Assembly: GCA_017881505.1 (NCBI GenBank)
Contig: JADGQW010000006.1
Span: 1-36,097, forward strand
Origin: Gemmatimonadales bacterium
GTDB lineage: Bacteria; Gemmatimonadota; Gemmatimonadetes; Gemmatimonadales; JACORV01
DNA: 36,097 nt
Reading direction: 5' to 3'
Each line of letters starts with the position of its first letter. Position 1 is the first letter of the stretch. The notes under the pieces were generated by a model. The model did not search any database and was not told the DNA's origin. It saw nothing but the letters and a program-made list of their open reading frames with translations. The translations under genes were made by a program, and so were the position numbers. Positions 866 through 31,945 of this stretch are shown one piece after another.

Positions 866-1828
866 ATGACCGATCCCGCCAGCTTCCGCGACCCGCGGCT
901 CACCGAGCAGCGGAACCCCGCCACCGAGGAGATCGACCTCGCCACGCCCCTCGACATCGTCGAGCTGCTGAACCGCGAGGACCGCCGGGTCCCCGAGGCG
1001 GTGTGGGCGGTCCGGCACGACGTGGCGAAGGCGATCGAGCTGGTCGAGCACGCCTTCCGCGCCGGGGGCCGGCTCCTCTACGTCGGCGCGGGAACGAGCG
1101 GCCGGCTCGGCGTCCTCGACGCGTCCGAATGTCCTCCCACCTTCGGCACGCCCCCCTCGCTGGTGGTCGGCATCATCGCCGGGGGCGCGACGGCGCTGGT
1201 CCGCAGCATGGAGGGCGCCGAGGACGAGTTCGACGCGGGGGGCGACGCGGTGGAGGAGCGGCAGGTCGCCGCGCACGACGTGGTGTTCGGCATCGCGGCG
1301 AGCGGCACGACCCCGTACGTCCGCGGCGCGCTGAGCCGCGCCGCCGCGCGCGGTGCCACGACGATCCTCCTCGCCTGCTCGGACCCGCCCAAGGACCTGC
1401 TCCTCAACGTGGACCTCGCCATCCTCCCCAAGGTCGGCCCGGAGGCCCTCACCGGCTCCACGCGCCTCAAGGCGGGGACGGCGACCAAGCTGGTGCTCAA
1501 CGCCGTCACGACCGGGGCGATGATCCGGATGGGGCGCGCGTACGGGAACCTGATGGTGGACCTCATCTCGACCGCCGAGAAGCTCCGCGACCGGGGCGAG
1601 CGGATCCTGATGGAGGTGGCGGGGGTGAGCCGCGAGGAAGCGCGCGCCGCGATCGCCGGCGCCGACGCCAAGGTGAAGACGGCGATCGTGATGCTGCGGC
1701 GCGGCGTGCCGCGCGAGGAAGCGGAGCGCCTCCTCGAGGAGAGCGGCGGCTTCGTGCGGAAGGCCGTCGGCGCGCCGCCGGCCTCGCCGCGCGCCGGCGG
1801 GACGGGAGACGGTGGCGGCCGCCGCTGA
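866..1828 (+). CDS. murQ: N-acetylmuramic acid 6-phosphate etherase
   Basis: MTDPASFRDPRLTEQRNPATEEIDLATPLDIV and VGAGTSGRLGVLDASECPPTF are MurQ/SIS-domain signatures; 320 aa. Confidence 0.95.
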   Translation: MTDPASFRDPRLTEQRNPATEEIDLATPLDIVELLNREDRRVPEAVWAVRHDVAKAIELVEHAFRAGGRLLYVGAGTSGRLGVLDASECPPTFGTPPSLVVGIIAGGATALVRSMEGAEDEFDAGGDAVEERQVAAHDVVFGIAASGTTPYVRGALSRAAARGATTILLACSDPPKDLLLNVDLAILPKVGPEALTGSTRLKAGTATKLVLNAVTTGAMIRMGRAYGNLMVDLISTAEKLRDRGERILMEVAGVSREEARAAIAGADAKVKTAIVMLRRGVPREEAERLLEESGGFVRKAVGAPPASPRAGGTGDGGGRR

Positions 1829-2963
1829 GCCGCGCGCGCCGCTCCTCGCGGTGGGCGCGATGTCCGGGACCTCGCTCGACGGCGTGACCGTCGCGCTGGT
1901 GCGCATCGAGGAGCCCGCGCCCTACGACATCCGGGCCACCCTCCTCGCCCACCGGACCCATCCCTACACGGAAGCGCAGCGCGCGCGGCTCGCGGCGGCG
2001 GTCGAGGGGGGCGGGCCCCGCGACCTCGCCATCCTCCACGCCGACCTCGGCACCTGGTTCGCGGACGCCGTCGAGAAGCTGCTGCGCGAGACCGGCACCG
2101 CCGCCGCCGGCGTCGCCTTCGTGGCGTCGCACGGCCAGACGGTGTGGCACGAGCCGCGACGCGCGTCGCTGCAGCTCGGGAGCCCCGCCGCCATCGCGGA
2201 GCGGCTGCGCGTGCCGGTGGTCTCGGATTTCCGCTCCCGCGACGTGGCCGCCGGGGGCGAGGGGGCGCCCCTCGTCCCGCGCGCCGACCGCCTCCTCTTC
2301 GCGCGGATCGACGGCCCCCGGGCGCTCCTCAACATCGGCGGCATCGCCAACTTCACGGTCGTGCCGCGCCGCGGCGAGGCCGCGGACCTCCTCGCCTTCG
2401 ACACGGGCCCCGGCGTGATGGTGATCGACGCCTGCGTGCGCCGCCTCTACCCCGGCCGCCGCTTCGACGAGGACGGCGCCCTCGCGCGCAGCGGACGGGC
2501 GCTGGAGGGGATCGTCGCCGAGACCCTGGGCCACCCCTTCTTCGCCGCGCCGCCGCCCAAGAGCACGGGACGCGAGACCTTCGGGGAGCCGTTCGCCGTG
2601 GCGCTGCTGGAGCGGTGCCGCGCCGCGAGCGCGGAGCCCGCGGACGCGGTGGCGACCGCGGTCGAGGTGACGGCGCGGGCCATCGGCGCCGCCGCGCGCT
2701 TCATCCCCCCGGCCCTCACGCCCCTCGACGTGGTGCGCTCGGGGGGCGGCGCGAAGAACCCCGCTCTGGTGGACGCGCTGATCCGCTGCTGGCCGGGACC
2801 GAAGCACCGCGCGTTCGACGATCTCTTCTTCGACGGCGAAGCCAAGGAAGCGGTGGCCTTCGCCCTGCTCGGTTACCTCACCTGGACGGGCCGCCCCGGG
2901 AACGAACCGGGCGCCACCGGCGCCGCCGGGCCGCGCGTCCTCGGATCGGTGAGCCCGCCATGA
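1812..2963 (+). CDS. anmK: Anhydro-N-acetylmuramic acid kinase
   Basis: AVGAMSGTSLDGVTVALVRI, NIGGIANFTV, FDTGPGVMVID; GTG start overlapping the murQ end by 17 nt. Confidence 0.93.
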   Translation: MAAAAEPRAPLLAVGAMSGTSLDGVTVALVRIEEPAPYDIRATLLAHRTHPYTEAQRARLAAAVEGGGPRDLAILHADLGTWFADAVEKLLRETGTAAAGVAFVASHGQTVWHEPRRASLQLGSPAAIAERLRVPVVSDFRSRDVAAGGEGAPLVPRADRLLFARIDGPRALLNIGGIANFTVVPRRGEAADLLAFDTGPGVMVIDACVRRLYPGRRFDEDGALARSGRALEGIVAETLGHPFFAAPPPKSTGRETFGEPFAVALLERCRAASAEPADAVATAVEVTARAIGAAARFIPPALTPLDVVRSGGGAKNPALVDALIRCWPGPKHRAFDDLFFDGEAKEAVAFALLGYLTWTGRPGNEPGATGAAGPRVLGSVSPP

Positions 2964-4372
2964 TCCCCTGGGCAGAACTCGTCCTCCCGGCGCTGCGCTG
3001 GGACCCCGACAAGGGCTTCGCGCCGTGCCTCGCCGACGCCGAACGCGCCCTCGCGCTCGGCGTGGGGGGATTCATCCTCTTCGGAGGCGAGCGGGAGGCG
3101 ATCCGCGCGCTCGCGGCGCAGCTCCAGGCCGCCGCGCCCCACCCGCTCCTCATCGCCTCGGACCTCGAGCGCGGGGCGGGGCAGCAGGCGCAGGGGCTCA
3201 CGCAGCTGCCGCCGCTCCGCGCCCTCGCCCCCCTCGGCGCCGACGCGGTGCGCGAGGCGGCGCGGCTGACCGCGCGCGAGGCGCGCGACGTCGGGATCAA
3301 CTGGGTGTTCGCGCCGGTGGTGGACCTCGACGTCGAGGCCGCGAACCCGATCGTCCAGACCCGCGCCTTCGGCGACGACCCGGAGCAGGTCGGGGCGCTC
3401 GGCGCCGCGTGGATCATGGCGTGCCAGGCGGGCGGCGTCCTCGCGTGCGCCAAGCACTACCCAGGGCACGGCCGCACCGTCACCGATTCCCACGCCGGTC
3501 TCCCGATGGTCACGTCCTCGCGCCTCGCCCTCGACGCCGACCTCGTGCCCTTCCGGATGGCGGCGGACGCGGGCGTGGCCGCGATGATGACCGCCCACGT
3601 CGCCTACCCGGCGCTCGACCCGAGCGGCGCGCCGGCCACCTACTCGGCGGCCATCGTGAAGGAGCTGCTGCGCCGCGAGCTCGGCTTCGACGGGCTCGTC
3701 GTCACCGACGCGCTGGTGATGGAGGGCGCGCTGCAGGGCCTCGACGAGGCGCAGGGCGCGGTGAAGGCGCTGCAGGCGGACTGCGACCTCCTCCTCTATC
3801 CCAAGGACGTGGCGGCTGTGGCGCACGCCCTCGAGGCGGCGGCGGCGTCGGGCGCGCTCGACGCGGACCAATTGGAGGAGGCGGCGATCCGCCGCCGCGA
3901 AGCCATCGCGCGGGTGGCCGAGCCGATGACGCTGGCGCCGCGCGATTTCGCGGCGGGACGCGCGCAGGGGGAGGCCATCCGGCTCGCCGCCGTCGAGGTG
4001 CTGCGCGGCGCGATCCCCGCCGGGCTGCGCCGGGTGCGCGTGGACGTGATCGACGACGACGCGGGCGGGCCCTACCGGAACCCGCCGCGCGAGGCGTTCG
4101 GCGCGGCGCTGCGGGAGCGCGGCGTGGAGCTGGCCGACGACGGTGCGCGGGTGGTGCTCGTCTTCTGCGACGTGAAGTCGTGGAAGTGCCGCGCCGGCCT
4201 CTCCGCCGGGAACCAGGCGCTGCTCGCGCGCCTGGCGGGGGACGCCGCGGCGGTGGTGCTCTTCGGCCACGCGCGCCGCCTCGCCGACGTGCCCGGCGCC
4301 GCGCCGGTGCTCTGCGCCTGGAGCGGCGACACCGGGATGCAGGCCGCGGCCGCGCGGCGGCTGGCGGGCTAG
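2960..4372 (+). CDS. nagZ: Glycoside hydrolase family 3 beta-N-acetylhexosaminidase (NagZ-like)
   Basis: ATG at 2960 overlaps the anmK stop (ATGA). CAKHYPGHGRTVTDSHAGLPMV is the GH3 NagZ KH(F/Y)PGHG...DSH motif. The longer ORF call from 2144 is an upstream extension through anmK. Confidence 0.88.
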   Translation: MIPWAELVLPALRWDPDKGFAPCLADAERALALGVGGFILFGGEREAIRALAAQLQAAAPHPLLIASDLERGAGQQAQGLTQLPPLRALAPLGADAVREAARLTAREARDVGINWVFAPVVDLDVEAANPIVQTRAFGDDPEQVGALGAAWIMACQAGGVLACAKHYPGHGRTVTDSHAGLPMVTSSRLALDADLVPFRMAADAGVAAMMTAHVAYPALDPSGAPATYSAAIVKELLRRELGFDGLVVTDALVMEGALQGLDEAQGAVKALQADCDLLLYPKDVAAVAHALEAAAASGALDADQLEEAAIRRREAIARVAEPMTLAPRDFAAGRAQGEAIRLAAVEVLRGAIPAGLRRVRVDVIDDDAGGPYRNPPREAFGAALRERGVELADDGARVVLVFCDVKSWKCRAGLSAGNQALLARLAGDAAAVVLFGHARRLADVPGAAPVLCAWSGDTGMQAAAARRLAG

Positions 4373-4378
4373 CGCCGG

Positions 4379-6100
4379 ATGCGGGCCCTCGACTGGCTGG
4401 TCGTCGGCGCCTACCTCGCCGGAAGCCTCGGGCTCGGTCTCTACCTGGCCCGGCGCGGCTCCAAGTCGCTCAGCGAATACTTCCTCGGCGGGCGCGCCAT
4501 CCCCTGGTGGCTCGCCGGCGGCTCCATGGCCGCGACCACCTTCAACGTGGACACGCCGCTCTACGTGGCGGGCCTCGTCGCGCGGCGCGGCATCGCGGGG
4601 AACTGGGAGTGGTGGTGCTTCGCCGCCACCCACGTGGTCATGCAGGTCGTCATGGGCCGGCTGTGGAGCCGCGCCCAGGTGATGACCGACGCCGAGCTGA
4701 TCGAGCTCCGCTACCACGGCCGCGCCGCCGCGCTCCTCCGCGGCACCCGCGCCTTCTTCTTCGGCATCCCCCTCAACTGCATCGCCATCGGCTACGGGAT
4801 GCTGGCCATGCGGAAGGTGATGGTCGCCCTCGACGTCACCACCGTCCTCCACCTCCCCGGCGATCCGCAGCTCTGGTCGGTCCTGATCATCGTCGCGATC
4901 ACCCTCGTCTACGCCGCCGCCTCGGGGATGTGGGGCGTCGTGTGGACCGACTTCTTCCAGCTGGTCCTCAAGATGCTCGGCGCCCTCCTGGTGGCCGGCT
5001 ACGCCCTCGCCGAAGTGCACGGCCTCGGCGGCCTGCGCGCCGCGCTCGCCGCCGCGGGACACGCCGACGCGCTCCGCATCCTCCCGCGCGCCGGCTCCGC
5101 CGCCCTCCCGCTCGACACCTTCGCCGCCTACCTCCTCCTCCAGTGGTGGACGTACCGCGGCGCCGACGGCGGCGGGATGTTCGTGCAGCGCCTCTCCAGC
5201 GTGAAGGACGAGCGTGCCGCCGAAAAAGCATCGATGTTCTTCAACATATTGAACTACGTGGTGCGCACCTGGCCGTGGGTGGTGGTGGCGCTGGCGGCGC
5301 TGGTGGTGCTGCCGCCCCTCGCCGATCCGGAACTGGCGTACCCGCTGATGATGAAGCGCTACCTCCCGCCGGGGGTGCTGGGGCTGGTGTTCGCGAGCCT
5401 CATCGCGGCGCTGATGAGCGCGGTCTCGACGCAGATCAACTGGGGGGCCTCGTACACGGTGCGCGACCTCTACCAGCGGTTCCTCGCTCCCGAGGCGCCG
5501 CAGGCGCGGCTGGTGGCGGTGGGGCGTGCGGCGACGGTCGTCATCACCCTCCTCGCGGCCGCGGCGAGCTTCGCCATGCAGGACGTGGGGCGGGTCTTCC
5601 GGTTCATGGTGCTGTTCGGGAACGGCACCGGCGCGGTGCTGCTGCTGCGGTGGTTCTGGTGGCGGGTGAACGCGTGGGCGGAGTGGACGGCGTTGGTGGC
5701 GGGGACGGTCATCGCCATCCTGCTGACCGCGGTCCCCGCGCTCGCCGGGCTCTCCTTTGGCGTCAAGCTGGCGCTCACGGCCTTCGGCGCGGCGGCGCTC
5801 TGGGTCCCGGTGATGCTCCTGACGCCTCCCGAGAGCCCCGCGGTGCTCGACGCCTTCTACCGGAAGGCGCGGCCGGGAGGGCCCGGCTGGGCGCCGGTGC
5901 GCGCGCGTGTGACGGTCGCGGCGGCCTCACCGCTGGGACGGGACCTCACCGAGGCCGTCGGCGTGCTGGCGCAGATCCTCGGGGCGATGCTCGCCATCGG
6001 CGGCGTCGTGGTGGGCTCGACGGCGTGGGGTGTGGGTGGACTCATCGCGCTGGGCGCGGGGACGCTGTTGCAGCGGAAGGTGCGGCCCGCGGCGGGGTAG
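4379..6100 (+). CDS. Sodium:solute symporter (SSS) family transporter, possible amino-sugar/muropeptide permease
   Basis: Multi-TM 573 aa protein; N-terminal DWLVVGAYLAGSLGLGLYLARRGSKSLSEYFLGGRAIPWWLAGGSMAATTFNVDTPL is typical SSS; starts 6 nt after nagZ. Confidence 0.88.
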   Translation: MRALDWLVVGAYLAGSLGLGLYLARRGSKSLSEYFLGGRAIPWWLAGGSMAATTFNVDTPLYVAGLVARRGIAGNWEWWCFAATHVVMQVVMGRLWSRAQVMTDAELIELRYHGRAAALLRGTRAFFFGIPLNCIAIGYGMLAMRKVMVALDVTTVLHLPGDPQLWSVLIIVAITLVYAAASGMWGVVWTDFFQLVLKMLGALLVAGYALAEVHGLGGLRAALAAAGHADALRILPRAGSAALPLDTFAAYLLLQWWTYRGADGGGMFVQRLSSVKDERAAEKASMFFNILNYVVRTWPWVVVALAALVVLPPLADPELAYPLMMKRYLPPGVLGLVFASLIAALMSAVSTQINWGASYTVRDLYQRFLAPEAPQARLVAVGRAATVVITLLAAAASFAMQDVGRVFRFMVLFGNGTGAVLLLRWFWWRVNAWAEWTALVAGTVIAILLTAVPALAGLSFGVKLALTAFGAAALWVPVMLLTPPESPAVLDAFYRKARPGGPGWAPVRARVTVAAASPLGRDLTEAVGVLAQILGAMLAIGGVVVGSTAWGVGGLIALGAGTLLQRKVRPAAG

Positions 6101-6184: not shown

Positions 6185-7531
6185 CTACGGCTGCGCCAGG
6201 AGCGCCTGCCCGCGGCGGATGGGCAGCCCCACGATCTCCGTGCTGCTCTCGCCCCCCCGCCCTCCGAACATCACGCCGACCACGAGGCCGTTGCGGTCGA
6301 AGATTGGGCTCCCCGACGCCCCCGTGCCGCTGAACGCGTCCAATTCCAGCACCGAGTCGCTCGCCGCCGTCACGGTCCCCGTCACCATCTTCGCCCGCGG
6401 ACGCTGGCAGCTGCCACAGCCCCCGGGGAAGCCGATCAGCGCGATCGGCGCGCCCGCCTCGAGTGGATTTGTCGCGAAGCCCGCGATGGTCGGGAACGGC
6501 CCCGCGGACTCCACCTGGATCACTGCGAGGTCGGCGTCGGGCGCGATGCGCACGATGCGCGCCGGGAGCACCTCGGTCGAGCCCGAGAAGCGGATCGCCA
6601 CGTCCCGCGCCCGCTCCCCGTCGCGGTTCATCACCGTGTGGCGGTTCGTCAGCATCCGCCCCTTGGCGTCCACGCTGAACGCCGTCCCCTCGAAGATCTG
6701 CGTGGTGTCGCTGAACCGCACCACGATGACGGCGATGGCCGCCGCGTTCTGGCGCTGGATGGCCGAGTAGTCCACCCCCTGCGCCGTCTCGATGTCCCGC
6801 TGGCGGTGCTGGACGGTGGTGTACTGCGCCTGCAGGGCCGCCACGCGCGCCGGGTCCTTGGCCGCGGCGATCTCCCGCTGCAGCCGGGCCGCCTCGGAGT
6901 CGGCGGCGGCCTTGGCGCCCCGCAATGTGGTCAGCTCCCGGCCCAGCGAGTCGAGCTTGGTCCCGAGCTGCGCGGTCTCCTCGCGAGCCGTCCGCCCCTG
7001 CCAGACCAGGACCGCGGCGGCGCCCACCACCACGATGCCGAGCACGATGAGGAGGGAGCGGTACCGCGTCGCGGAAGCCCTCACCTCGGCGCGGAGGATG
7101 CCCGTGGCGCTCGGCCCGGCGGGCTTGGGGGGCGCGGCGGGGGCGGGGGCCTTCGCGGCGGTGGCCGCGCGGGCCGCCGCCGGCGGCGCCGCGACCTTCT
7201 CCATCACCTGTTCCGCCGCCTCGCGCACCAGCCGGACGCGGACCTCGGGGCCGTGCCCGCCGCAGCGGATGACGTCGCCGTCGGCCAGCGCCCGGTCGCC
7301 CTCGATGCGGTGGCCGTTGACGAAGGTCCCGTTGCGGCTGCCGAGGTCGCGGACGGTGTAGCCGTCCCCGCTCAGGACGACGGCGGCGTGCTTGGTGGAG
7401 GCGTCGAGATCCGCTTCGGCGTCGAACCGCACTTCGGCGAGGGGATCGCGGCCCAGGGCGATGAAGGACTTCTCGAAGGCGACCTTGCGGCCGGCGCGCG
7501 CGCCCGAGAGGAACTCGAACTCGATCCGCAT
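6185..7531 (-). CDS. FHA domain - transmembrane - trypsin-like serine protease
   Basis: N-terminal FHA (ALGRDPLAEVRFD...YTVRDLGSRNGTFVNGHRI), TM segment LLIVLGIVVVGAAAVLVW, then TNRHTV (His), DADLAVIQVE (Asp), GASGSPIFD (Ser). Confidence 0.88.
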   Translation of the reverse strand: MRIEFEFLSGARAGRKVAFEKSFIALGRDPLAEVRFDAEADLDASTKHAAVVLSGDGYTVRDLGSRNGTFVNGHRIEGDRALADGDVIRCGGHGPEVRVRLVREAAEQVMEKVAAPPAAARAATAAKAPAPAAPPKPAGPSATGILRAEVRASATRYRSLLIVLGIVVVGAAAVLVWQGRTAREETAQLGTKLDSLGRELTTLRGAKAAADSEAARLQREIAAAKDPARVAALQAQYTTVQHRQRDIETAQGVDYSAIQRQNAAAIAVIVVRFSDTTQIFEGTAFSVDAKGRMLTNRHTVMNRDGERARDVAIRFSGSTEVLPARIVRIAPDADLAVIQVESAGPFPTIAGFATNPLEAGAPIALIGFPGGCGSCQRPRAKMVTGTVTAASDSVLELDAFSGTGASGSPIFDRNGLVVGVMFGGRGGESSTEIVGLPIRRGQALLAQP

Positions 7532-7562: not shown

Positions 7563-8557
7563 TCAGAAGGGCCACAACTTCTTCTTCTTGGGGGCGGGCT
7601 CCTTCTGGGCGGGCTCGGTCTTGCGCTCGCTCGTGCCCTTCGCGGCCCCGGGCTCGTAGACCGGCACCGGCTCCGTCGTGGACTCGGTGTCCAGCAGCGG
7701 GTAGACCTGGTGGCTGGGCGACTCGCTGCCGTCCGGCTCCGCGATCCCCGGGCCGCCGAAGCGGGCGACGATGCAGGTGATGTTGTCGGGGCCGCCGCGC
7801 TCGTTGGCCAGGTCGATCAGCCCCTTGCAGGCCGTCACGAGGTCGGGGGCGCCCGTCACGATCCGCAGGATGTCGTCGTTCTTCACCAGCCCGGAGAGGC
7901 CGTCCGAGCACATGATGAGGACGTCGCCCTTCCGCAGGTCCTGGCGGGTGAGGTCCACCTTCACCGCCGGGTCGGGGCCGAGCGCCTGGAGGATGATGTT
8001 GCGGCGCTCGCTGACCGCCGCCTCCTCCTCCGTCAGCTCCCCGGCGTCCACCAGCCGCTGCATCAGCGACTGGTCCTTCGTGATCTGGACGATCTTCCCC
8101 ATCCGGATCAGGTAGCCGCGGCTGTCGCCGATCTGCGTGAGGTAGAGCGCGCCGCCGAAGCACCCCGCCGCCGTCGTCGTCGTTCCCATCCCCCGGTTCT
8201 CGGGGTGGGCGCGGGCGTACTCGTAGATGCGGCTGTTCGCGATCTCCACCGCCTCCTTCAGGCGGTAGGCGAACCGCTGGTCGGTGACCTCGGGGTCGTT
8301 CCCCCACGCCTCGATCATGTGGTTGAAGACCGTCTCGGTCGCCATCTCGCTCGCCAGCTCGCCGGCGGCGGCGCCGCCCATCCCGTCGGCCACCATGAAG
8401 AGCGTGCCGCGCTTGCCGAGCTCGTGGCTCCGGATCTCGGGCTGCAGCGACGCCTCGCGGGTGGTGAGGTTGGCGACGAGGAAGCTGTCCTCGTTGTGGT
8501 CGCGGGCCATCCCGACGTCGGTGCGCCCGAAGACTTCGACGATGACGGGAGTGTCCG

Positions 8558-8561
<4 letters not shown>
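7563..8561 (-). CDS. PP2C-family Ser/Thr protein phosphatase
   Basis: RTDVGMARDHNEDSFLV, FMVADGMGGAAAGELAS, ITKDQSLMQRL, CSDGLSGLV, GGPDNITCIVARF. The ATG at 8561 overlaps the upstream kinase stop (ATGA). Lysine-rich C-terminus KKKKLWPF. Confidence 0.93.
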
Positions 8562-10191
<1,630 letters not shown>

Positions 10192-10195
<4 letters not shown>

Positions 10196-11250
10196 GACAT
10201 CTCGACCATCAGGAGTTTGTCACCCACGAGGATCTTGGAGTTCTTGCCCAGCGGCTGGTCGCCGCGGACCGCGACGGCCACGCCGTTGCGGCTCCCGGCG
10301 TCCGCCAGCACGAAGTCGGCGTCCTCGGACTTCACCGCCGCGTGCCCGCCGCTCATGGACGGATCGTACGGGAACACCCAGTCGCCCTTGTCCCTCCCGA
10401 GCGCCACGTCCCGGCCGGGGGAGAGGTGGAAGATATCGCGCACGCTCCCGTCCGCCCGGAGCTGCGTGAGGCACGCGATGTCCGCGCTCGGCACCAACGA
10501 CCCCATCCGCCGCGTGGCGTCCGCCTCCGGCGGGTGCGGGCCCGGGTAGCCGAGGCGCCGGAACCGCAGCAACTGCGAGCCGATGAGGACCAGGTCGCCG
10601 TCCACCAGCTTGTGCGGCCCCGTGAGGAACACCCACGTCCCGTTCCGGGACCCCAGGTCGCGGATGGAGAGCATCCCTTCCTTCCAGATCAGGAGGGCGT
10701 GCATCGGCGAGAGGTAGGCGTCGTCGGCGAAGGAGATGTCGGCGCCCGCGCGCCCGACGGTCGTCTCCTCTCCCGTCAGGGGGTGCCGGCTCCCCTTGGT
10801 GCCGTCCTCGGCCACCACGACGAGCTGCACCGGCGGCGCCCGCTTGGCGGTGAACACCGCCGTCGCCTCGTGGGGCGCGGAGACCCGGTCCCCCTTCCCG
10901 AGCGGCGTCGCGCAGTTCGGGCAGAACTTGAACGACGGGTCCGGGATGGCGGTGCCGCACTTGGTGCAGGTGATCGCGCTCGGATCCACCGCAGCCTCCA
11001 ACTTGGCGCCGCAGAATGCGCAGAAGGGGAGCGCCGTGTCCACTTCGTGGCCGCACGAGCTGCACTTCGGGACGACGGACGGGATCCCCGTGCCGGCGGT
11101 CGCGTAGACGCGCGTCGCCGGCATGCCGCTCGCGGCGGCGCCGACGGGCGTATTCATGGCCATCGCGGAGGCGCTGAGCGGCTTCCCGCAATCCATGCAG
11201 AAGCGGGAACCGGGGTCGTTTTGCCGGCCGCAGTGCGCGCACGTCGTCAC
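10192..11250 (-). CDS. Triple zinc-ribbon, double FHA-domain protein
   Basis: Three CxxC...CxxC ribbons (CAHCG..FCMDCG; CSSCG..FCAFCG; CTKCG..FCPNCA) and two FHA cores (MLSIRDLGSRNGTWV; FVLADAGSRNGVAV); GTG start. Confidence 0.9.
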
Positions 11251-11296
11251 GACTCGGGGGGCCTCCGCAAGGATCGGCGATGGCTGATGAGTTTGC

Positions 11297-11326
11297 CAAT
11301 ATAGAGTCCGTCCGGAGGGGGGTCAA
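11297..11326 (-). promoter_or_regulatory. Candidate promoter of the FHA/kinase operon: TTGACC-N17-TATATTG
   Basis: On the minus strand TTGACC (11326-11321), 17-nt spacer, TATATT(G) (11303-11297), 47 nt upstream of the GTG at 11250. Confidence 0.7.
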
Positions 11327-11336
11327 CCGAGCTAAA

Positions 11337-11367
11337 TTGACGGTGCGCCGAGAGTTGGTGTACGTTG
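11337..11367 (+). promoter_or_regulatory. Candidate promoter of the amidase gene: TTG-N21-TACGTTG
   Basis: TTGACG at 11337, TACGTTG at 11361-11367, ATG at 11376. Confidence 0.45.
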
Positions 11368-11375
11368 GGCACTCG

Positions 11376-13298
11376 ATGCCTACCCCACGCGCATGCCCCG
11401 CCGTTGCCCTCTTCGCGGCCACCCTGCTCCTTGCCCCCGCCGCCGCCGCCCAGGTCCGGGCGAGCCGGCGTCCGGTGCCGCTGCCCACCATCCCCGCCTC
11501 GCGGGGTGCCCTCCAGGTGCGGGTGGTCTACCCGCCCGCCGGCTCGCTCGTGACCGCCCGGGACTCGACGTTCGTCTTCGGGTCCGTGGGGAACGGCCTC
11601 GCGCACCTCGCGATCGACGGACACCCGGTCGCGGTGGCGCCGAACGGGGCGTTCCTGGCGTTCATCCCGCTGCCCAACGACACCGGCGCCTCGCTGCGCA
11701 TCGTGGCCACCCTCGGCGCCGACTCGGCTGTGCTCGTGCAGCACGTGCGCCTCCCGGCGCGTCCCGCCGTCCCCGCCAGCGCCCTCTGGATCGACGAGGG
11801 ATCCGCGGAACCCAGGGGCGAGCGCTGGGCCGAGGCGGGGGAGCCCATCCGCGTCTCCGTGCGTGCCGCGCCCGGCGCGGCGGTGTCGGTCCGCCTCCCC
11901 GACGGCCGGCTCTTCCCGCTGGCACCGGACACCCTGCGGGAATCGTCCCCGGGGACCTTCGAGCGGCAGGCGCCCCGCCCGGTGGCGCCCCCCGCGCTCC
12001 GCTATCGCGGCACCTTCCCGGCCGCGGCCCTCGGCGCGCCACTGCCCGAGGTCACCGCGCGAGAGGTGCCTCGATCAGACACGGGAGGCGCAGGCGCGAC
12101 CCTCCTCGCCGTCCTCGGCGCCGACACCGTGCGCACCGCGCTCGCCCTCCGCGTCACGCTCCTCGATCCCGACCGGCGTGCCGTCGTCCTGCTGAGCGAC
12201 GACACCACCGGCACCGAGGCGACCGACGGCGCCGTGGTGGGGACCCCTTCGCCCGATGGCACGTACCACTGGTTCTTCCGGAACGGCACCCGGGTCGCGG
12301 TGAGCGGCCGGACGGGGGATGCGCTCCGCGTGCGACTCTCCCACGCGGCGTCGGCGTGGGTGGGCCTCGATGGCGTGGCCGCGGTGCTCCCGGCGGGCAC
12401 GCCCCCCCCGGCGGCGCGGGTGACGCTGGTCCGCCTCGCCCCCGGCGCCTCGAGCGTCGCCGCCCGCTTCGCCCTGACCGCCCGGGTGCCCTTCCGGGTG
12501 GACGAGGACGATCGCGGCATAACCGTGCGGCTGTACGGCACGCAGTCGGACCTCGACTTCATCCAGTACGGGGGGACCGACCCCCTCGTCCCGCGGATCA
12601 CGTGGGCGCAGCCCTCGGACGACGAGTGCACGGTGACGTTCGAGCTCTCGAGGCCCCTCTTCGGATGGCGCGCGCGCTGGGAGGGGGAGAGCCTGGTGCT
12701 CGAGATCCGCCGCCCGCCGGTCGTGAATGCCGCGCGGCCGCTCCGGGGCCGGCTCATCGCGGTGGATCCCGGACACCCGCCGGTGGGCGCGAGCGGTCCC
12801 ACGGGGCTGCGGGAAGCGGAAGCCAACCTCGCCGTCGGCCTCGCGCTGAAGGCGATCCTCGAGCAGGCCGGGGCGCGGGTGCTGATGACGCGGACAGTGG
12901 ACACCGCCGTCGGACTGTACGAGCGCACGACGCTGGCGGAGCAGGGGGACGCGGAGATCCTCGTCTCCATCCACAACAACGCCTTCCCCGACGGCGTGAA
13001 CCCGTGGGCCAACAGCGGGACGAGCACCTACTACTTCCACCCGGGCAGCGCCCCCCTCGCGTTCCTCGTGCAGGACGCGCTGGTCGGGGAGATGGGGCTG
13101 CGGAACCTCGGGGTGGGGCGCGGGAACTTCGCGCTCGTGCGCCCCAGCTGGATGCCGGCGATCCTGACGGAAGGCGCGTTCCTGATGATCCCCGAGCAGG
13201 AGAACGGCCTCCGCACCCCGGCGTACCAGCGGGCGTACGCGCGCGGCATCGCCCTCGGCATCCAGGCGTACCTGCGGCGGTGGGCACCGGCGCGCTGA
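11376..13298 (+). CDS. N-acetylmuramoyl-L-alanine amidase (Amidase_3) with AMIN-like N-terminal region and signal peptide
   Basis: Signal peptide ACPAVALFAATLLLAPAAAAQ; catalytic region LIAVDPGHPPVGASGPTGLREAEANLAVGLALKAIL ... LVSIHNNAF ... ILTEGAFLMIPEQE. ATG at 11376 preferred over the ORF start at 11280. Confidence 0.9.
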   Translation: MPTPRACPAVALFAATLLLAPAAAAQVRASRRPVPLPTIPASRGALQVRVVYPPAGSLVTARDSTFVFGSVGNGLAHLAIDGHPVAVAPNGAFLAFIPLPNDTGASLRIVATLGADSAVLVQHVRLPARPAVPASALWIDEGSAEPRGERWAEAGEPIRVSVRAAPGAAVSVRLPDGRLFPLAPDTLRESSPGTFERQAPRPVAPPALRYRGTFPAAALGAPLPEVTAREVPRSDTGGAGATLLAVLGADTVRTALALRVTLLDPDRRAVVLLSDDTTGTEATDGAVVGTPSPDGTYHWFFRNGTRVAVSGRTGDALRVRLSHAASAWVGLDGVAAVLPAGTPPPAARVTLVRLAPGASSVAARFALTARVPFRVDEDDRGITVRLYGTQSDLDFIQYGGTDPLVPRITWAQPSDDECTVTFELSRPLFGWRARWEGESLVLEIRRPPVVNAARPLRGRLIAVDPGHPPVGASGPTGLREAEANLAVGLALKAILEQAGARVLMTRTVDTAVGLYERTTLAEQGDAEILVSIHNNAFPDGVNPWANSGTSTYYFHPGSAPLAFLVQDALVGEMGLRNLGVGRGNFALVRPSWMPAILTEGAFLMIPEQENGLRTPAYQRAYARGIALGIQAYLRRWAPAR

Positions 13299-18569: not shown

Positions 18570-20636
18570 ATGTTCTGCTCCCGCTGCGGTACGGAAGTCC
18601 AGGTGTCGAGCAAGTTCTGTCCCACGTGCGGACTGGACTTGATCACGATCACCCAAGGCATGACGTCCGCGCAGCCGACGGCGCAGCCCCCGCAGCCGGA
18701 CGAAGCGGAGATCGTGCGGGACGCGCTCAAGGACGAGTACGAGCTGGAGAAGGAGCTGGGGCGCGGCGGGATGGCGATCGTCTTCAAGGCCCGCGACAAG
18801 TCGCTCGAGCGCGAGGTCGCCATCAAGGTCCTGCCGTTCTCGCTCTCGTTCGACGCGGAGTTCGTCGAGCGGTTCCAGCGCGAGGCGCGCACCGCCGGCA
18901 AGCTCGAGCACCCGAACATCATCCCGATCTACCGCGTCGGCAAGTCGGGACGGGTCATCTACTTCGTCATGAAGTTCATCCGCGGGAAGTCCCTCTCCGC
19001 GGTCGTCGAGACGCGCGGCGCGCTCCCCGTGCCCGAGCTCAAGCGCGTGCTCATCGAGTGCTCCCGGGCGCTCGGCTTCGCGCACAAGCACGGCATCGTG
19101 CACCGCGACATCAAGCCCGACAACATCATGTTCGACGAGCTGGGCCAGGCGATCGTGACCGACTTCGGGATCGCGAAGGCCCAGTCCGGCGCCCGCCTCA
19201 CGGGCACCGGCATGTCCATCGGCACGCCGCACTACATGAGCCCCGAGCAGGCGCGGGCCCAGAACCTCGACGGCCGGAGCGACCTCTACTCCCTCGGCGT
19301 CGTGGGCTACCAGTGCCTCACCGGACACGTGCCCTTCGACGGCGAGGACAGCTTCTCCATCGGTTACAAGCACATCATGGAGGAGCTCCCCGTCCCGCCG
19401 CTGGAGAACGCCGACCAGCGGGAGCTCTTCACCGTCGTCCAGAAGATGATGGCGAAGAAGGCCGAGGACCGGTTCCAGACCGCCGAGGACGTGGTGCACG
19501 CCCTCGAATCCCTGGGCGGCCCCTCGGCGCGCGTCTCGATGACCGACATGGCGACGATGCCGACGCGGGCGATCGAGCCGATGAAGGCGCCGCCGCCGGC
19601 GATCTCGTTCGCCGCCACGACGCCTCTCCCGCGCGCGTCGGCGTCCATGGGCATCCCCGCCGACGTCGCCGCGGCCAATGCGGCGAAGGCCGCCGCGCCG
19701 GCGCCGCCGGCGGCGCCTCCCAAGGCGAAGCCCGCGCCCCGGCCCGCCCCGAAGCCGAAGAGCAAGGCGCCGTTCGTCGCGCTGGCGGCGATCGCCGTCG
19801 TCCTGCTCGCGCTGGGCGGCTACATGTTGTTCGGGCGCGGCACGCCGCAGGTCGCCGTGCAGCCCCCGGCCGACACGACGCACCCGGCCCCCGCGACGCC
19901 CGACACCGCCAAGGCGCGCGCCGACAGCATCGCCGCGGCCCAGATGGCTGCGGCGGCCCCGACGCCCTCGCGCACCACGCCCACGCGCACCGCGTCCTCG
20001 CGGGCCACCCCTCCGGCGCGCCCCGTCACGGCTGCGGTGCCTAGCGGGCCTCCCGGCACGCTGAGCGTCGCGGGCAATATTCCGCATGGCGCGACGATCA
20101 CGGTGGACGGCCGCCGCGGCAGCGCGCACGAGAAGCTGCCCCCGGGCCGGCACACCCTCCGCGTCGCGGCGTCCGGATTCCAGAACTACGAGGCGCAGGT
20201 GGACATCGCGTCGGGGCGCGTGACCTCGCACGCCGTCACGATGATCGCGGCCTCGACGGCGCCCGCTCCCCCGGTCGCGGCGACGCCCCAGGCCGCCGCG
20301 GGCGCGCCCGCCCCCGAGTGCGCCAACCCGACGTTCGGCGTCCTCAACACGCGGAACGCCTGCTACACCGTCCGGCCGACCTCGCGGACGCCGCCCCTCG
20401 CGGTGGCGCCTTCGTCGTGCACCGGAACCGTGACGCCGGCGACCGTCCTGCTGAAGGTGAGCCCCACAGGTGACGTGGCCCTCGCCTCGGCCAGCGCCCC
20501 CGCCTCCAATTGCAGCGCCTTCAACGCCGCCGCCCTCGCCGTGGCGCGCGATCTCTCCTTCACGCCCGCGACCAAAGGGGGGCAGCCCGTCGAGGCGTGG
20601 ATCAAGCTGAGCATCCGCCCGCAGCTGTCGCGTTGA
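18570..20636 (+). CDS. Zinc-ribbon Ser/Thr protein kinase with TM, PEGA and TonB_C-like C-terminal domain
   Basis: CSRCGTEVQVSSKFCPTCG; GRGGMAIVFKARD, HRDIKPDNIMF, VTDFGIAKA, GTPHYMSPEQA; TM APFVALAAIAVVLLALGGYMLFG; PEGA GTLSVAGNIPHGATITVDGRRGS...LPPGRHTLRVAASGFQ; C-terminal VLLKVSPTGDV...FNAAALAVARDLSFTPATKGGQPVEAWIKLSIRP. Confidence 0.93.
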   Translation: MFCSRCGTEVQVSSKFCPTCGLDLITITQGMTSAQPTAQPPQPDEAEIVRDALKDEYELEKELGRGGMAIVFKARDKSLEREVAIKVLPFSLSFDAEFVERFQREARTAGKLEHPNIIPIYRVGKSGRVIYFVMKFIRGKSLSAVVETRGALPVPELKRVLIECSRALGFAHKHGIVHRDIKPDNIMFDELGQAIVTDFGIAKAQSGARLTGTGMSIGTPHYMSPEQARAQNLDGRSDLYSLGVVGYQCLTGHVPFDGEDSFSIGYKHIMEELPVPPLENADQRELFTVVQKMMAKKAEDRFQTAEDVVHALESLGGPSARVSMTDMATMPTRAIEPMKAPPPAISFAATTPLPRASASMGIPADVAAANAAKAAAPAPPAAPPKAKPAPRPAPKPKSKAPFVALAAIAVVLLALGGYMLFGRGTPQVAVQPPADTTHPAPATPDTAKARADSIAAAQMAAAAPTPSRTTPTRTASSRATPPARPVTAAVPSGPPGTLSVAGNIPHGATITVDGRRGSAHEKLPPGRHTLRVAASGFQNYEAQVDIASGRVTSHAVTMIAASTAPAPPVAATPQAAAGAPAPECANPTFGVLNTRNACYTVRPTSRTPPLAVAPSSCTGTVTPATVLLKVSPTGDVALASASAPASNCSAFNAAALAVARDLSFTPATKGGQPVEAWIKLSIRPQLSR

Positions 20637-24593: not shown

Positions 24594-24628
24594 CTACGGT
24601 CAACGGTTCACGGTCAGCGGTCTACGGT
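24594..24628 (-). repeat. Heptamer tandem array, five units NNNCGGT (ACCGNNN on the transcribed strand)
   Basis: CTACGGT CAACGGT TCACGGT CAGCGGT CTACGGT; the last unit contains the stop codon of the tricorn-like gene. Confidence 0.8.
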
Positions 24629-27600
24629 CTCCGCGGCGTGCGGTTCTCGTACGCCGGTCGGCGCGGCGGCGCGACGGCGTGCTCCTGCAGCTGCCGCAGG
24701 CACTCCTGGATGGCCCGCTCGAGCTGCGGGTCGGTCCCCCGGGCCAGCTGCGTCGGATCGTCCACCACGGCGATGTCCGGTGCCACGCCCACGCCCTCCG
24801 GGAACCACTCCCCCGTCGGGCTGTAGAGCCGGAAGGTGGGCACGGTGACGCTGCCGCCGTCCACGAGGGGCGGGGCGCCGGTGATGCCGATGAGGCCGCC
24901 CCACGTCCGCTGGCCGATCAGCGGCCCGAGCCCCTTCTCCCGGAAGAAGTACGGGAAGGCGTCGCCGCCGGAGCCGCTCCATCCGTTGATGAGCATCACT
25001 TCGGGGCCGAAGTGCGCCGCCGGCGGCCACCGCCAGTCGGCGCCGTCGCGCACCGCCCAATAGCCCAGGACCGGGCGGTTCAGCATCTCGATGAACCGGT
25101 CGGGGATCTGCCCCCCGCTGTTCCAGCGCTCGTCGATGATCAGGGCGTCCTTCGTGAATTGCGCGATGAACTGCCGCTCCAGCTCCGTCTGCCCGTCGAT
25201 CCCGGTGCTGGGCACGTAGATGTAGCCCACGCGCCCGTTGGTGGCCTGCTCGACGCGGCGGCGGTTCCCCTCCATCCAGGCGAGGGTCCGCAGGCGCGTC
25301 TCGTCCCGCAGCGTCTCGACGACCACGTGCCGCGCGCCCTCCGGCGTGGGCCGGTCGTTCACGGTGAGGTCCACGGCGACGCCGGCCAGCCCCTCGAAGG
25401 CGGCCCACGGGTCCTTCGTCACGTCCATCGGGATGCCGTTCACGGCGAGCACGTACTCGCCCTCGTGCACGTTCACGCCAGGGCGCGCGAGGGGGGAGCG
25501 CGCCTCGCTGTCCCACGCCCCGCCGTCCACGATGTGGGCGATGCGGAACGCCCCGTTCTCCAGCGCCCAGTCCACGCCGAGGAGGCCTACGGCCCGCTCG
25601 GGCGCCGGCTCGAGGTCGCCGCCGCCGCGGTAGGTGTGCGAGCTGCTCAGCTCGCTGATCAGCTCGCCGATCACGAAGTTCACGTCCCAGCGCGTCACGG
25701 CGTCGCCGATGAGGCGGCCGTACCGCTCCCGCATCGCCGCCCAGTCCACGCCGTGCATGTTCGGATCGTAGAAGAAGTCGCGCTCGATCCGCCACACGTC
25801 GTTGAAGATCTGCCGCCACTCGGCGCGCGGGTCCACCGTCATCTCCATCTCGGCGATGCGCAGCGGCTTGTCGAGCTTCTGGTCGGCCTTGAGGTCGATG
25901 ATGTAATACCGGTGCTCCTGCGAGACGCCCAGCTTCTTGCCGTCGTACGTCATCTGGAAGCCGTCGGCGTCGGGGACGACCGTCTTCTCCTCGCGCTCCT
26001 TGAGGTCGTAGTACATGATCGGCGTCTTGGTGTCCGTCGAGCCCGCCGTCGGCGTCTTCCGATAGACCACTTTGCCCGACACGGCGTACAGCTCGGCGAA
26101 GTTGCCGCCGGTGATGGGGAGGACGACCGCGCGCTGCTCGAAGCCGGCGGTGTCGATCTCCACGGCTGCCGGGGGCTTGGGCGGCACGACCGGAGTCCCG
26201 GCCGCCGCCGGTGCGGCGGTGGCCCGGCCGCCGCGGGCCGGCGCGGCCGCGGGGGGCGTGACGGGCGGCGTGGCGGCGCTGTCGTTCCGCGTCCCTTCGG
26301 CGTCGTTGCGTGGCTCGAGAGGGGAGGGGACGTCACGCCGGAGCGCCACGGCGACGATGCTGGTCGCGTTCGGATAGACGAAGGTGTTGTCGAGGTCCGA
26401 GTAGACGGGGCGCAGCGTCCGGTTCGAGAAGAAGTAGAGGTACTTCCCGTCGGGATCGAAGACGGGCTGGGTGTCGTTGTAATAGCCGGAGGTGACCTGG
26501 GTGCTCCGCCCGGCGCGCGCGTCGTAGAGGAAGATCGCGTGAGCCTGCGTCTCGAGGTCCCTCTGGTAGGCGAGCCACCGGCTGTCGGCCGACCAGCTCG
26601 GCCGGAAGCCGTCGAGGTTCCCGAAGTACCAGTTCCGCGCCTGGTCCACCCGGGCCGTCTGCCCCGACTCGATGTCGAGGACGCGGATCGTCATCGTCTG
26701 GTCCACGAACGCGAGCTTCTTCCCGTCGGGGGACCAGTACGGGTGGAAGCGGTACCCCGGGCCGTAGGTGGTGAGCTTCCGCTCGGCGCCGCCGCCGGCG
26801 GGGCGCACGTACAGCTCGTACTCCCCGGACCGGTCGGACCAGTAGGCCACCTGCTGGCCGTCAGGCGAGTAGGCGGGATAGCGCTCCGCGGCGCCGGAGG
26901 TCTGCGTGATGTCGAGGACGGGGCCGTACTGCGCCGGCACGGAGAAGAGGTCGCCGCGGGCCTCGAAGATGGCCCGCTGGCCGGTCGGGGAGAGGGTCCC
27001 GCCCTGGATGAGGGACGCCACCCGCTCCGCGCGGGGCCGCAGCGTCGCGAGGTCGGTCACGACGGTCACGGTGACCTCGTGCGACTGCTCGGTGGCGAGG
27101 TCGAGCAGATAGAGCCGGCCGCCCGCCTCGAAGACGATGTCCGAAGGGCCGACGGCGGGGAAGGTGATGTCGAAGTCGGTGAAGTGGGTGATCTCGCGGA
27201 ACTGGCGCGTCTCGAGGCTGTACGCCCAGATGTTGTTGCGCGCGGCGGAGTCGCGGTCGGAGAGGAAGTACATCGTCCGGCCGTGCCACATCGGGTGGGC
27301 GTCGTTCCCCTCCCAGGTGGTGATCCGCTCCGACGCGAACGTCTGCAGGTCGAAGGTCCAGATGTCGGGGGCCCAGCCGCCGCGGTAGCGCTTCCAGGTG
27401 CGGAAGTCCTGCGCCATCGGCATGTAGGCGAGGGTCCGGCCGTCGGGGGAGATCGCGCCGAACTCCGCGTACGGCACCGGGAGCCGCTCGGGGAGCCCGC
27501 CCGTCGCCGGCACCTTGTAGAACTGCGAGTAGCGCTGGCGGCCCGACGCCATCGCGGTGGCGACGAGGAGGCTGCGGCCGTCGGGGTACCAGTCCACGAT

Positions 27601-27954
27601 GCGGTCGGCCATCGGGTGGTGCGTCACCCGCAGCGGCTCGCCGCCGTGGGCGTCCACCACGTAGACGTCCTGGTTGCCGTCGTAGTCGGCGCTGAAGGCG
27701 ATCTTCGTCCCGTCGGGGGAGAAGCGCGGGAAGCTCTCCTCACCCGGCGGCGAGCTGAGCCGCTGGGCGGCGCCGCCGGTCTTGGGGACGATCCAGATAT
27801 CGCCGGCGTAGACGAAGGCGATCTCGGTCGCCGAGACGTCGGGCTGCCGGAACATGCGGGCGCTGACCTGCGCCTCCGCGGCAGGGGCCGCGAGCAAGGC
27901 GAGGGACGCGAAGAGGACGGCGGACGCGAGGACGCTCACGGGCCGAAGGCGCAT
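24622..27954 (-). CDS. Secreted tricorn-type S41 serine protease with beta-propeller and PDZ domains
   Basis: Signal peptide VSVLASAVLFASLALLAAPAAEAQ; PD40/TolB repeats (FSPDGTKIAFSADYDGNQDVYVVD...); PDZ region LARPGVNVHEGEYVLAVNG; S41 core IIDERWNSGGQIPDRFIEML and NGWSGSGGDAFPYFFREKGLGPLIGQRTWGG. Confidence 0.92.
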   Translation of the reverse strand: MRLRPVSVLASAVLFASLALLAAPAAEAQVSARMFRQPDVSATEIAFVYAGDIWIVPKTGGAAQRLSSPPGEESFPRFSPDGTKIAFSADYDGNQDVYVVDAHGGEPLRVTHHPMADRIVDWYPDGRSLLVATAMASGRQRYSQFYKVPATGGLPERLPVPYAEFGAISPDGRTLAYMPMAQDFRTWKRYRGGWAPDIWTFDLQTFASERITTWEGNDAHPMWHGRTMYFLSDRDSAARNNIWAYSLETRQFREITHFTDFDITFPAVGPSDIVFEAGGRLYLLDLATEQSHEVTVTVVTDLATLRPRAERVASLIQGGTLSPTGQRAIFEARGDLFSVPAQYGPVLDITQTSGAAERYPAYSPDGQQVAYWSDRSGEYELYVRPAGGGAERKLTTYGPGYRFHPYWSPDGKKLAFVDQTMTIRVLDIESGQTARVDQARNWYFGNLDGFRPSWSADSRWLAYQRDLETQAHAIFLYDARAGRSTQVTSGYYNDTQPVFDPDGKYLYFFSNRTLRPVYSDLDNTFVYPNATSIVAVALRRDVPSPLEPRNDAEGTRNDSAATPPVTPPAAAPARGGRATAAPAAAGTPVVPPKPPAAVEIDTAGFEQRAVVLPITGGNFAELYAVSGKVVYRKTPTAGSTDTKTPIMYYDLKEREEKTVVPDADGFQMTYDGKKLGVSQEHRYYIIDLKADQKLDKPLRIAEMEMTVDPRAEWRQIFNDVWRIERDFFYDPNMHGVDWAAMRERYGRLIGDAVTRWDVNFVIGELISELSSSHTYRGGGDLEPAPERAVGLLGVDWALENGAFRIAHIVDGGAWDSEARSPLARPGVNVHEGEYVLAVNGIPMDVTKDPWAAFEGLAGVAVDLTVNDRPTPEGARHVVVETLRDETRLRTLAWMEGNRRRVEQATNGRVGYIYVPSTGIDGQTELERQFIAQFTKDALIIDERWNSGGQIPDRFIEMLNRPVLGYWAVRDGADWRWPPAAHFGPEVMLINGWSGSGGDAFPYFFREKGLGPLIGQRTWGGLIGITGAPPLVDGGSVTVPTFRLYSPTGEWFPEGVGVAPDIAVVDDPTQLARGTDPQLERAIQECLRQLQEHAVAPPRRPAYENRTPRRP

Positions 27955-28024: not shown

Positions 28025-28702
28025 ATGCGCATCTTGGTGGTCGAGGACGACCGGAAGGTTGCCCGCTTCATCCAGCAGGGGCTGGAGGAGGAGGGGCACG
28101 CCGTGGACGTCGCGGGGGATGGCGAGGAGGGAGCGCTCCTCGCGCACGTCAACCCGTACGACGTCATGGTCCTGGACATCCAGCTGCCGAAGAAGAACGG
28201 CCTCCAGCTCGCGGCCGAGCTGCGCCGCGAGCAGGTGCGGACGCCGATCCTGATGCTCACGGCGCGCGACTCCACGGAGGACGTGGTGCGCGGCCTCGAC
28301 GCCGGCGCCGACGACTATCTCACGAAGCCCTTCGCCTTCGAGGAGTTGGTGGCGCGCCTCCGGGCCCTCGGCAGGCGATCGACCTCGACGCCGGCGGGCG
28401 GGGTGCTGCGACTCGCCGACGTGGAGGTGGACCGCACCCGGCACCGCGCCTCGCGAGGGGGCCGCGAGCTGGCGCTCACCCCGCGCGAGTTCCGCCTCCT
28501 TGCCTACCTGCTGGAGCGCCCCGACGAGGTCGTGACCCGCGTCGAGCTGCTCGAGAAGGTCTGGGACATGTCGTTCGACCCCGGCACCAACGTCGTGGAC
28601 GTCCACATCTCGAACCTCCGCCGCAAGCTCGAGGAGGGCGGGGCGCCGCGGCTCCTGCACACCGTCCGAGGGGTCGGGTTCTCGTTTCGGCCCGGCGTCT
28701 GA
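28025..28702 (+). CDS. OmpR/PhoB-family response regulator (CusR/CopR-like)
   Basis: MRILVVEDDRKVARFIQQGLEEEGHAVDVAGDG...VLDIQLPKKNG...LTARDSTEDVVRGLDAGADDYLTKPFAFEELVARLRAL; winged-helix C-terminus. Confidence 0.95.
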   Translation: MRILVVEDDRKVARFIQQGLEEEGHAVDVAGDGEEGALLAHVNPYDVMVLDIQLPKKNGLQLAAELRREQVRTPILMLTARDSTEDVVRGLDAGADDYLTKPFAFEELVARLRALGRRSTSTPAGGVLRLADVEVDRTRHRASRGGRELALTPREFRLLAYLLERPDEVVTRVELLEKVWDMSFDPGTNVVDVHISNLRRKLEEGGAPRLLHTVRGVGFSFRPGV

Positions 28703-30108
28703 TGCTCCGCTCCTTCCGCGTGCAGCTCGCCGTCCGCTTCGCCCTGACGATGCTCGTCGTCATCGCCGGTGTCGGCGTCGCGGCCACGTGGTCGTTGCGC
28801 GTGATCCTCCAGCGGGAGCTGGACGCGACGCTGCTGCAGCTCGCGGAGGTCGAGGTGCTCGCGGGGGCGTCCACGTCCGGCCCCGACTTCACCTTCCACG
28901 AGGGGGTGCTCCTCGCCCGCACCCGGCTGCCGAGCTCGGAGCTCACCCGCTACGGCGAGCTGTGGGATGCGGAGGGCGTGCCGGTGGTCCGGAGCGCGAA
29001 CCTCGGCGACCGCGACCTCCCGCTCCCGGCCACCGCGATGGCGGAGGCGCGCCGGGGCGTCCCGGGCCTCGCCACGCACACCTGGGGCGCTGACCGGCTG
29101 CGGTCGCTCGTCTACCCGCTCCGGCTCGTGGGGGCGATGCACGGCTCTCACTACCTCCAGGTCGCGGCGCCCCTGGCCCCCTTGGATGCCGTGATCTGGC
29201 GGTTCGCCGGCCTCGTGGCGGTCCTCGGATTCACCGGCGCGGCGGCCGCCTTCGGCGGAGCGTGGTTCTTCGCCCGGCTCGCCACCCGTCCGGCGGAACA
29301 GATCGCCGCCCAGGCGCAGGCCATCGAGGCGGGGACGCTGTCGGCGCACATCACGGCGCACGCCGAGGTGGTGGAGTACGCCAGCCTCGTCGCGGTGCTG
29401 AACGCGATGCTGGACCGCCTCCGCGCCGCGTTCGACGCGCAGCGCCGCTTCGTCGCCGACGCGAGCCACGAGCTGCGCTCCCCGCTGACCGTGATGCGCG
29501 GCGACCTCGACGTGGCGCTGCGGCGGGACCGGAGCGTGGAGGAGCTGCGCGCCGTCCTGGCGCGGATGCGGGAGGAGGTGGACGGGATGACCGCCCTGGC
29601 CGGCAACCTCCTGCTGCTCGCGCGCGCCGACGCCGGCCTCCCCGCGTCGGCTCTCGGCGAGGTGGACCTGGCCGACGTGGTCGACCGCGTGGTGGCGCGC
29701 TCAGCCGGGCCTGCGGAGGCGGCCGGCGTCGTCCTGACCGCCGCGGCGCAATCCGCCCCGGTGCACGGCGACGCGGCGCTGCTCGACCGCGCCGTCGGCA
29801 ACCTGGTCGAGAACGCCCTCAAGCACGCCCCACGCGGCGCGCGGGTCGCGGTCCGCTGCGCGGCGGCCGGCGGCGTGGCCACGCTCGAGGTGGAAGACGG
29901 CGGACCCGGGATCGCGCCGGAGCACGCCGAGCACGTCTTCGAGCGCTTCTATCGCGCCGACCCCGCTCGGGGACGGGACGCCGGCGCGGGGCTCGGCCTG
30001 CCCATCGCGCGCGCCATCGCGGAGGCCCATCGCGGCGCGCTCGTCCTCGCCCGCGCCACGCCGGGCGCGCTGTTCCGTCTGACGGTTCCGTTGGCCGGCG
30101 GGGGCTGA
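28702..30108 (+). CDS. Sensor histidine kinase (HAMP-HisKA-HATPase)
   Basis: FVADASHELRSPLTVMRGDLDVAL (H-box), NLVENALKHAPRG (N-box), VEDGGPGIAPEHAEHVFERFYRAD, GLGLPIARAIAEAHRG; ATG overlaps the upstream TGA. Confidence 0.94.
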   Translation: MLRSFRVQLAVRFALTMLVVIAGVGVAATWSLRVILQRELDATLLQLAEVEVLAGASTSGPDFTFHEGVLLARTRLPSSELTRYGELWDAEGVPVVRSANLGDRDLPLPATAMAEARRGVPGLATHTWGADRLRSLVYPLRLVGAMHGSHYLQVAAPLAPLDAVIWRFAGLVAVLGFTGAAAAFGGAWFFARLATRPAEQIAAQAQAIEAGTLSAHITAHAEVVEYASLVAVLNAMLDRLRAAFDAQRRFVADASHELRSPLTVMRGDLDVALRRDRSVEELRAVLARMREEVDGMTALAGNLLLLARADAGLPASALGEVDLADVVDRVVARSAGPAEAAGVVLTAAAQSAPVHGDAALLDRAVGNLVENALKHAPRGARVAVRCAAAGGVATLEVEDGGPGIAPEHAEHVFERFYRADPARGRDAGAGLGLPIARAIAEAHRGALVLARATPGALFRLTVPLAGGG

Positions 30109-30312
30109 CGGGCGGCGGCCACGCGCTCCAGGCCCCCGGGAAGGCCGTCCGGCACGAGCCGCAGTACGAAACCTCACGCACGCTTCAGACTCCCTTAACA
30201 GTCCCGTCCCTAGACTCCTCGACGCGTCGACCGCCGTGTCGGTGGTCGCACGGCGTCGCCATCGGCTCCATTCACCGGTCGCACGCGGTTCCACCTCGAG
30301 AGGAGTCGCCGG

Positions 30313-30615: not shown

Positions 30616-30625
30616 TCGCGGACCC

Positions 30626-31942: not shown

Positions 31943-31945
31943 GCG

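Follow-up and report, generated by a model that had tools for sequence, protein, structure and literature searches.

MarP of mycobacteria (Rv3671c, PDB 3k6y/3k6z) has an N-terminal membrane anchor and a C-terminal extracytoplasmic protease of trypsin fold, and it lacks a PDZ domain; it has four TM helices and no FHA domain (PMC4992679). The peptidoglycan hydrolase RipA is a MarP substrate (PMC6628586). DegS, DegP and HtrA, the S1C proteases, share the trypsin fold, the catalytic triad and the loop order with the protein described below, and DegS also has a single TM anchor. A kinase, a PP2C phosphatase and an FHA protein act together at the inner membrane in the threonine phosphorylation pathway of type VI secretion (PpkA, PppA, Fha), in which PpkA phosphorylates a threonine of TssL, an inner-membrane protein, and Fha binds the modified residue (PMC3953482). 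An FHA domain N-terminal to a trypsin-type protease is also on record: a survey from 2008 lists the FHA-FHA-Tryp protein NP_811686.1 of Bacteroides thetaiotaomicron, which was not characterised there (PMC2605481). In the open-access literature we found neither a characterised FHA-trypsin fusion or combination of FHA with a periplasmic protease, nor a paper linking phosphothreonine signalling to proteolysis outside the inner membrane.

The window, by which we mean the whole stretch of 36,097 nucleotides analysed, encodes a protein which combines features of these systems (Table 1). It resembles MarP in its N-terminal anchor, its C-terminal protease and the absence of a PDZ domain, and differs from it by possessing a single TM helix and an FHA domain. 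In comparison with DegS, DegP and HtrA it lacks the PDZ domain, and it has an FHA domain, predicted to be cytoplasmic, ahead of the TM helix. Unlike in the type VI secretion pathway, the FHA domain is fused to a protease, and no T6SS genes were noticed in the window. NP_811686.1 has two FHA domains instead of one and comes from another phylum. The closest FHA domains are those of GarA, OdhI and FhaB (NCBIfam FhaB, 8.7e-14; PDB GarA, 7e-17 with a profile), regulators which, in contrast to our protein, have no protease domain.

Table 1. Features of the FHA-TM-protease locus, with positions in the window
Feature	Position	Strand	Basis or remark
SIS-domain protein, etherase-like	866-1828	+	
Anhydro-MurNAc kinase AnmK	1812-2963	+	
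GH3 glycosidase	within 2819-4372	+	
Sodium/solute symporter	4379-6100	+	
FHA-TM-coiled coil-trypsin-fold protease gene, 448 aa	6185-7531	-	ORF, Pfam, AlphaFold model, 28 homologues
Trypsin-fold protease domain, residues 266-446	6194-6736	-	Pfam Trypsin_2; Foldseek DegP/DegS/HtrA1; MarP 3k6z
Triad codons H298, D334, S406	6638-6640, 6530-6532, 6314-6316	-	
CGSC, C372-C375	6407-6418	-	LD-equivalent loop; absent from 28 homologues and 54 other fusions
Coiled-coil stalk, residues 178-251	6779-7000	-	AlphaFold helices; heptad-like periodicity
Single TM helix, residues 159-177	7001-7057	-	Family hydropathy; continuous model helix 144-223
Ala/Pro-rich disordered linker, residues 105-141	7109-7219	-	pLDDT <50
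FHA domain, residues 1-100	7232-7531	-	Pfam FHA 2e-14; invariant columns
PP2C (Stp1/IreP-type) phosphatase	7563-8561	-	NCBIfam NF033484, 235.5 bits, cut-off 230
PP2C C-terminal tail motif VYPLLDTESTTEPVPVY	7656-7706	-	13/13 in families f1 and f3; candidate FHA ligand
Zinc-ribbon Ser/Thr kinase, one TM (about 9042-9091), extracytoplasmic tail	8558-10195	-	Pfam Pkinase 1.2e-50; TM by sequence; conserved position
Kinase juxtamembrane Thr333 (ATQLM)	9197-9199	-	Candidate phosphosite, possible docking point of the FHA domain
Zinc-ribbon protein with two FHA domains, first operon gene	10192-11250	-	Pfam; conserved position
Divergent N-acetylmuramoyl-L-alanine amidase (Amidase_3)	11280-13298	+	Pfam 2.5e-34; contexts

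As judged from sequence and model, this domain layout exceeds what chance would produce: there are two curated domain matches and a high-confidence model, and the arrangement is conserved in three families of the order. The reading frame starts with ATG. Pfam places FHA (PF00498) at residues 26-91 (E=2e-14; 54.2 bits, curated cut-off 20.7) and Trypsin_2 at residues 282-420 (E=1.7e-19; 71.4 bits, curated cut-off 27.6). The TM helix has a mean Kyte-Doolittle value of 2.75 and is the only TM candidate, with no second peak. The AlphaFold model, computed for a monomer from an input of 29 sequences (mean pLDDT 85.9, pTM 0.60), has pLDDT values mostly above 90 in the FHA and protease parts, and its helices 144-223 and 227-251 span the membrane and continue as a coiled-coil-like stalk; being a monomer model, it is silent on coupling. 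In the stretch of the stalk a hydrophobic periodicity of 3.4-3.6 residues beats that of shuffled sequences (p<0.05) in 21 of the 29 homologues. An earlier, sequence-only reading of this DNA had described an N-terminal FHA domain, one TM segment at about 6990-7060, a coiled-coil-like stretch, a complete His/Asp/Ser triad and a CGSC motif between the Asp and the Ser; all of these were found again by the above methods, and the gene, for which no strand had been named, lies on the minus strand.

The same reading called the protease HtrA-like, which holds for the fold. Foldseek groups the protease domain with DegP, DegS and HtrA1 (E about 1e-13, about 20% identity), whereas by sequence the best solved relative of this domain is MarP (3k6z, 4e-10). 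Pfam detected no PDZ domain, and the protease domain ends at residue 446 of 448. The protein fits neither family proper: it scored 33.7 bits with TIGR02037 (cut-off 416) and 21 bits with TIGR02038 (cut-off 423), the models of HtrA/Deg (S1C), and in the MarP model NF033740 it reached 47 bits against a cut-off of 250, with one TM helix, not four.

The FHA domain is most likely cytoplasmic and the protease extracytoplasmic, a topology suggested by residue statistics and by homology to extracytoplasmic proteases. In 24 of the 29 homologues Lys and Arg are commoner immediately ahead of the TM helix than immediately behind it, with the reverse in one, and the net charge is positive on the C side of the helix, too. 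Cysteine is rarer in the protease half than in the FHA half (odds ratio 7.7, Fisher p=1.4e-4). The residues expected to contact phosphothreonine (R28, S45 and N67) and also H48 and N72 are invariant in all 29 aligned sequences, thus the signature residues of FHA domains (GR, SxxH, NG) are kept throughout.

The protease gene is the last of an operon in which it is preceded by the genes of a soluble zinc-ribbon/FHA protein, a transmembrane Ser/Thr kinase and a PP2C phosphatase, in this order. The first two junctions are 4-nt overlaps (the ATG of the PP2C gene, lying within the listed ORF, overlaps the kinase stop) and the last is a 31-nt gap. Of 16 contexts within the order that were of sufficient length, 15 have the four genes side by side and in the same direction, a count that includes the kinase of locus L118, which was absent from the BLAST output and was found by inspection of ORFs. 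The zinc-ribbon FHA gene was not found in locus L128. Kinase, phosphatase and FHA genes are thus encoded and conserved together, as expected of a Ser/Thr kinase-PP2C-FHA signalling module, and with a kinase and a PP2C phosphatase in the same operon, control by phosphothreonine is the natural reading.

FHA domains recognise phosphothreonine and often also the residue at +3, and on these grounds two threonines encoded in the operon are new candidate ligands. The first is in the C-terminal tail of the PP2C phosphatase, where the pattern YPL[LI]D[TP]E[ST][TSD]T[EDQ]PVP[VI]Y occurs in 13 of 13 sequences from families f1 and f3, that of the window and those of 12 relatives; its sole invariant Thr is T296 (7674-7676), with Val at +3. 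The motif is absent from the eight PP2Cs of family f2, although this family keeps the FHA-protease. The second is in the linker between the kinase domain and the TM helix of the kinase, which can hardly be aligned apart from [AGK]T[QMAV]x[MLIV]. This motif, in short T-x-x-[MLIV], is present in 17 of 17 kinase linkers, compared to 3.1 expected from shuffles, and is also visible by eye in L118. It must be noted that this motif was defined post hoc and that the sequences are related, thus the enrichment is a lead, not proof.

We propose that the FHA-TM-protease serves as the output arm in a module for phosphothreonine signalling at the membrane, and put the probability of this reading at about one half. 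The domains, the intact triad, the phosphothreonine-contact residues, the single TM helix, the operon and its conservation are read from sequence and model, whereas we infer the topology, the FHA ligand, the direction of the signal and the substrate. A signal would lead to autophosphorylation of the kinase, including the conserved Thr of its juxtamembrane linker, and the cytoplasmic FHA domain would bind this phosphothreonine. Such docking could recruit the protease to the kinase or cluster it there, and the TM helix and the coiled coil might relay the event to the extracytoplasmic HtrA/MarP-like protease, which would then cleave envelope proteins. The PP2C phosphatase would return the system to its resting state; in some members of the order its own tail, which resembles an FHA ligand, may tether it. 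Because MarP cleaves RipA, and the operon lies between amidase and peptidoglycan-recycling genes, cell-wall proteins, together with the adjacent peptidoglycan amidase, are the first candidates for a substrate. The sequence-only reading had proposed that phosphopeptide binding by the FHA domain controls the extracytoplasmic protease. In outline the idea stands, on the invariant phosphothreonine-binding residues, the Lys/Arg bias, the depletion of Cys and the kinase/PP2C operon; the CxxC switch attached to it does not (see below).

In its most specific form the proposal is an inside-out receptor, in which the FHA-bound phosphorylated kinase activates the outer protease via the coiled coil, with the T-x-x-[MLIV] sites conserved in the kinase linker and in the PP2C tail as ligands. 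We hold this version tentatively, at somewhat below even odds. If true, it would link Ser/Thr kinase signalling directly to proteolysis of the envelope or cell wall; a conserved FHA-TM-protease encoded next to a kinase and a phosphatase of its own would provide a direct and testable route from intracellular phosphothreonine signalling to proteolysis beyond the inner membrane, in a phylum, Gemmatimonadota, whose cell-envelope biology has been little studied. The candidate phosphosites make the link to the protease accessible to peptides and point mutants.

The signal could also run in the opposite direction. The protease would sense a misfolded or damaged envelope protein and the FHA domain would recruit or release the kinase or the phosphatase, or else the protease would cleave the extracytoplasmic tail of the kinase. 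HtrA relatives such as DegS function in envelope stress sensing, the kinase does have an extracytoplasmic tail, and a coiled coil could transmit either way. On the other hand, Pfam finds no PDZ or other peptide-sensing domain in the protein, and the tails of the kinases cannot be aligned over the whole order, which speaks, if not decisively, against their being a conserved target of cleavage. All things considered we regard outside-in signalling as unlikely.

It is also conceivable, with a similarly low probability, that the FHA domain is a localiser only, parking a constitutively active protease at the phosphorylated kinase or at other marked sites with no change in catalytic rate. FHA domains usually work through docking, and the 37-residue disordered linker between the FHA domain and the TM helix does not suggest rigid coupling. 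The conserved coiled-coil stalk with its helical periodicity, however, is more than a tether needs.

The CGSC pair had been interpreted as a redox switch or disulfide of the protease. From the strands of the structural model and the alignments we infer that C372 and C375 sit in the loop following the conserved IGFP, the counterpart of loop LD in HtrA proteases, and MarP is a precedent for activity tied to a disulfide (PMC4992679). The genome encodes VKOR, DsbA-type and DsbB-type enzymes, and the two cysteines arise together in a half-protein otherwise nearly free of Cys (four in the 28 homologues after residue 190). At the level of the family, however, the switch is refuted, on a point that the sequence-only reading had itself named: neither Cys is conserved in any of the 28 aligned homologues, a set drawn from genomes of other genera in which the closest members are about 60% identical. 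The two nearest have a similarly shortened loop, GFPGGSGEVAV and GFPGGGGEPGAV (GGSGEV and GGGGEP), and among 55 distinct single-ORF FHA-protease fusions collected, the window's own is the one with a CxxC in the protease domain. The MarP-type disulfide, moreover, is reported at positions 214-397 and is not a CxxC in the LD-equivalent loop. We therefore consider a redox switch on the activation loop very improbable. The CGSC is probably a lineage-specific addition outside the family mechanism, and its appearance as a pair, in a genome with oxidising enzymes, suggests a disulfide in the window's lineage, which could pin the shortened loop.

A pseudo-enzyme or a pure binding platform is the least probable alternative for the protease domain, since His298 and Ser406 are invariant in 29 of 29 sequences, GxSGS is retained and the window protein has the canonical D334, even if the column of this Asp holds D in 25 and E in four sequences. 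The four with Glu (L014, L020, L025 and L030) all belong to family f2 and have an Asp just before it.

The output-arm reading concerns an architecture that, by sequence comparison, is old: it is conserved throughout an order of Gemmatimonadota, and Myxococcota and Planctomycetota have looser relatives. Three families of the window's order contain full-length relatives, the closest contigs being from Gemmatimonadota, and of 150 genomes sampled from the phylum, those of this order often had strong full-length matches and the others seldom did. FHA and protease are joined in one ORF at Planctomycetota loci (L049/L162, L172) and at five Myxococcota loci (L164-L168). A PP2C gene is located upstream on the same strand in three of the latter (L164, L165 and L166), and kinase matches lie beside the fusion at a Planctomycetota locus, thus the association either predates the phylum or was reassembled. 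Considering these fusions and the entry in the 2008 survey, the architecture is not new. A search of plasmids returned protease-domain matches only, mostly Deg-type where annotated, and none covered 80% of the query. The genome of the window has a second FHA-protease (L161:6010-7761, G000 contig C8), which contains two FHA domains and is about 34% identical to the first.

The surroundings of the operon are less constant. Of the 16 contexts of sufficient length, 12 have the Amidase_3 gene beside the operon; being divergent, and not adjacent in the other four, this gene may be a mere neighbour. On its opposite flank the operon adjoins the symporter gene in the window's own family only. In the window this symporter belongs to a peptidoglycan-recycling cluster (866-6100, plus strand). 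Further away the window contains another zinc-ribbon Ser/Thr kinase, which carries PEGA and TonB_C domains (18570-20636, plus strand), a Tricorn-type protease (24622-27954, minus strand), and a two-component system followed by an outer-membrane efflux protein and a CusB/HlyD-type adaptor (28025-33139, plus strand).
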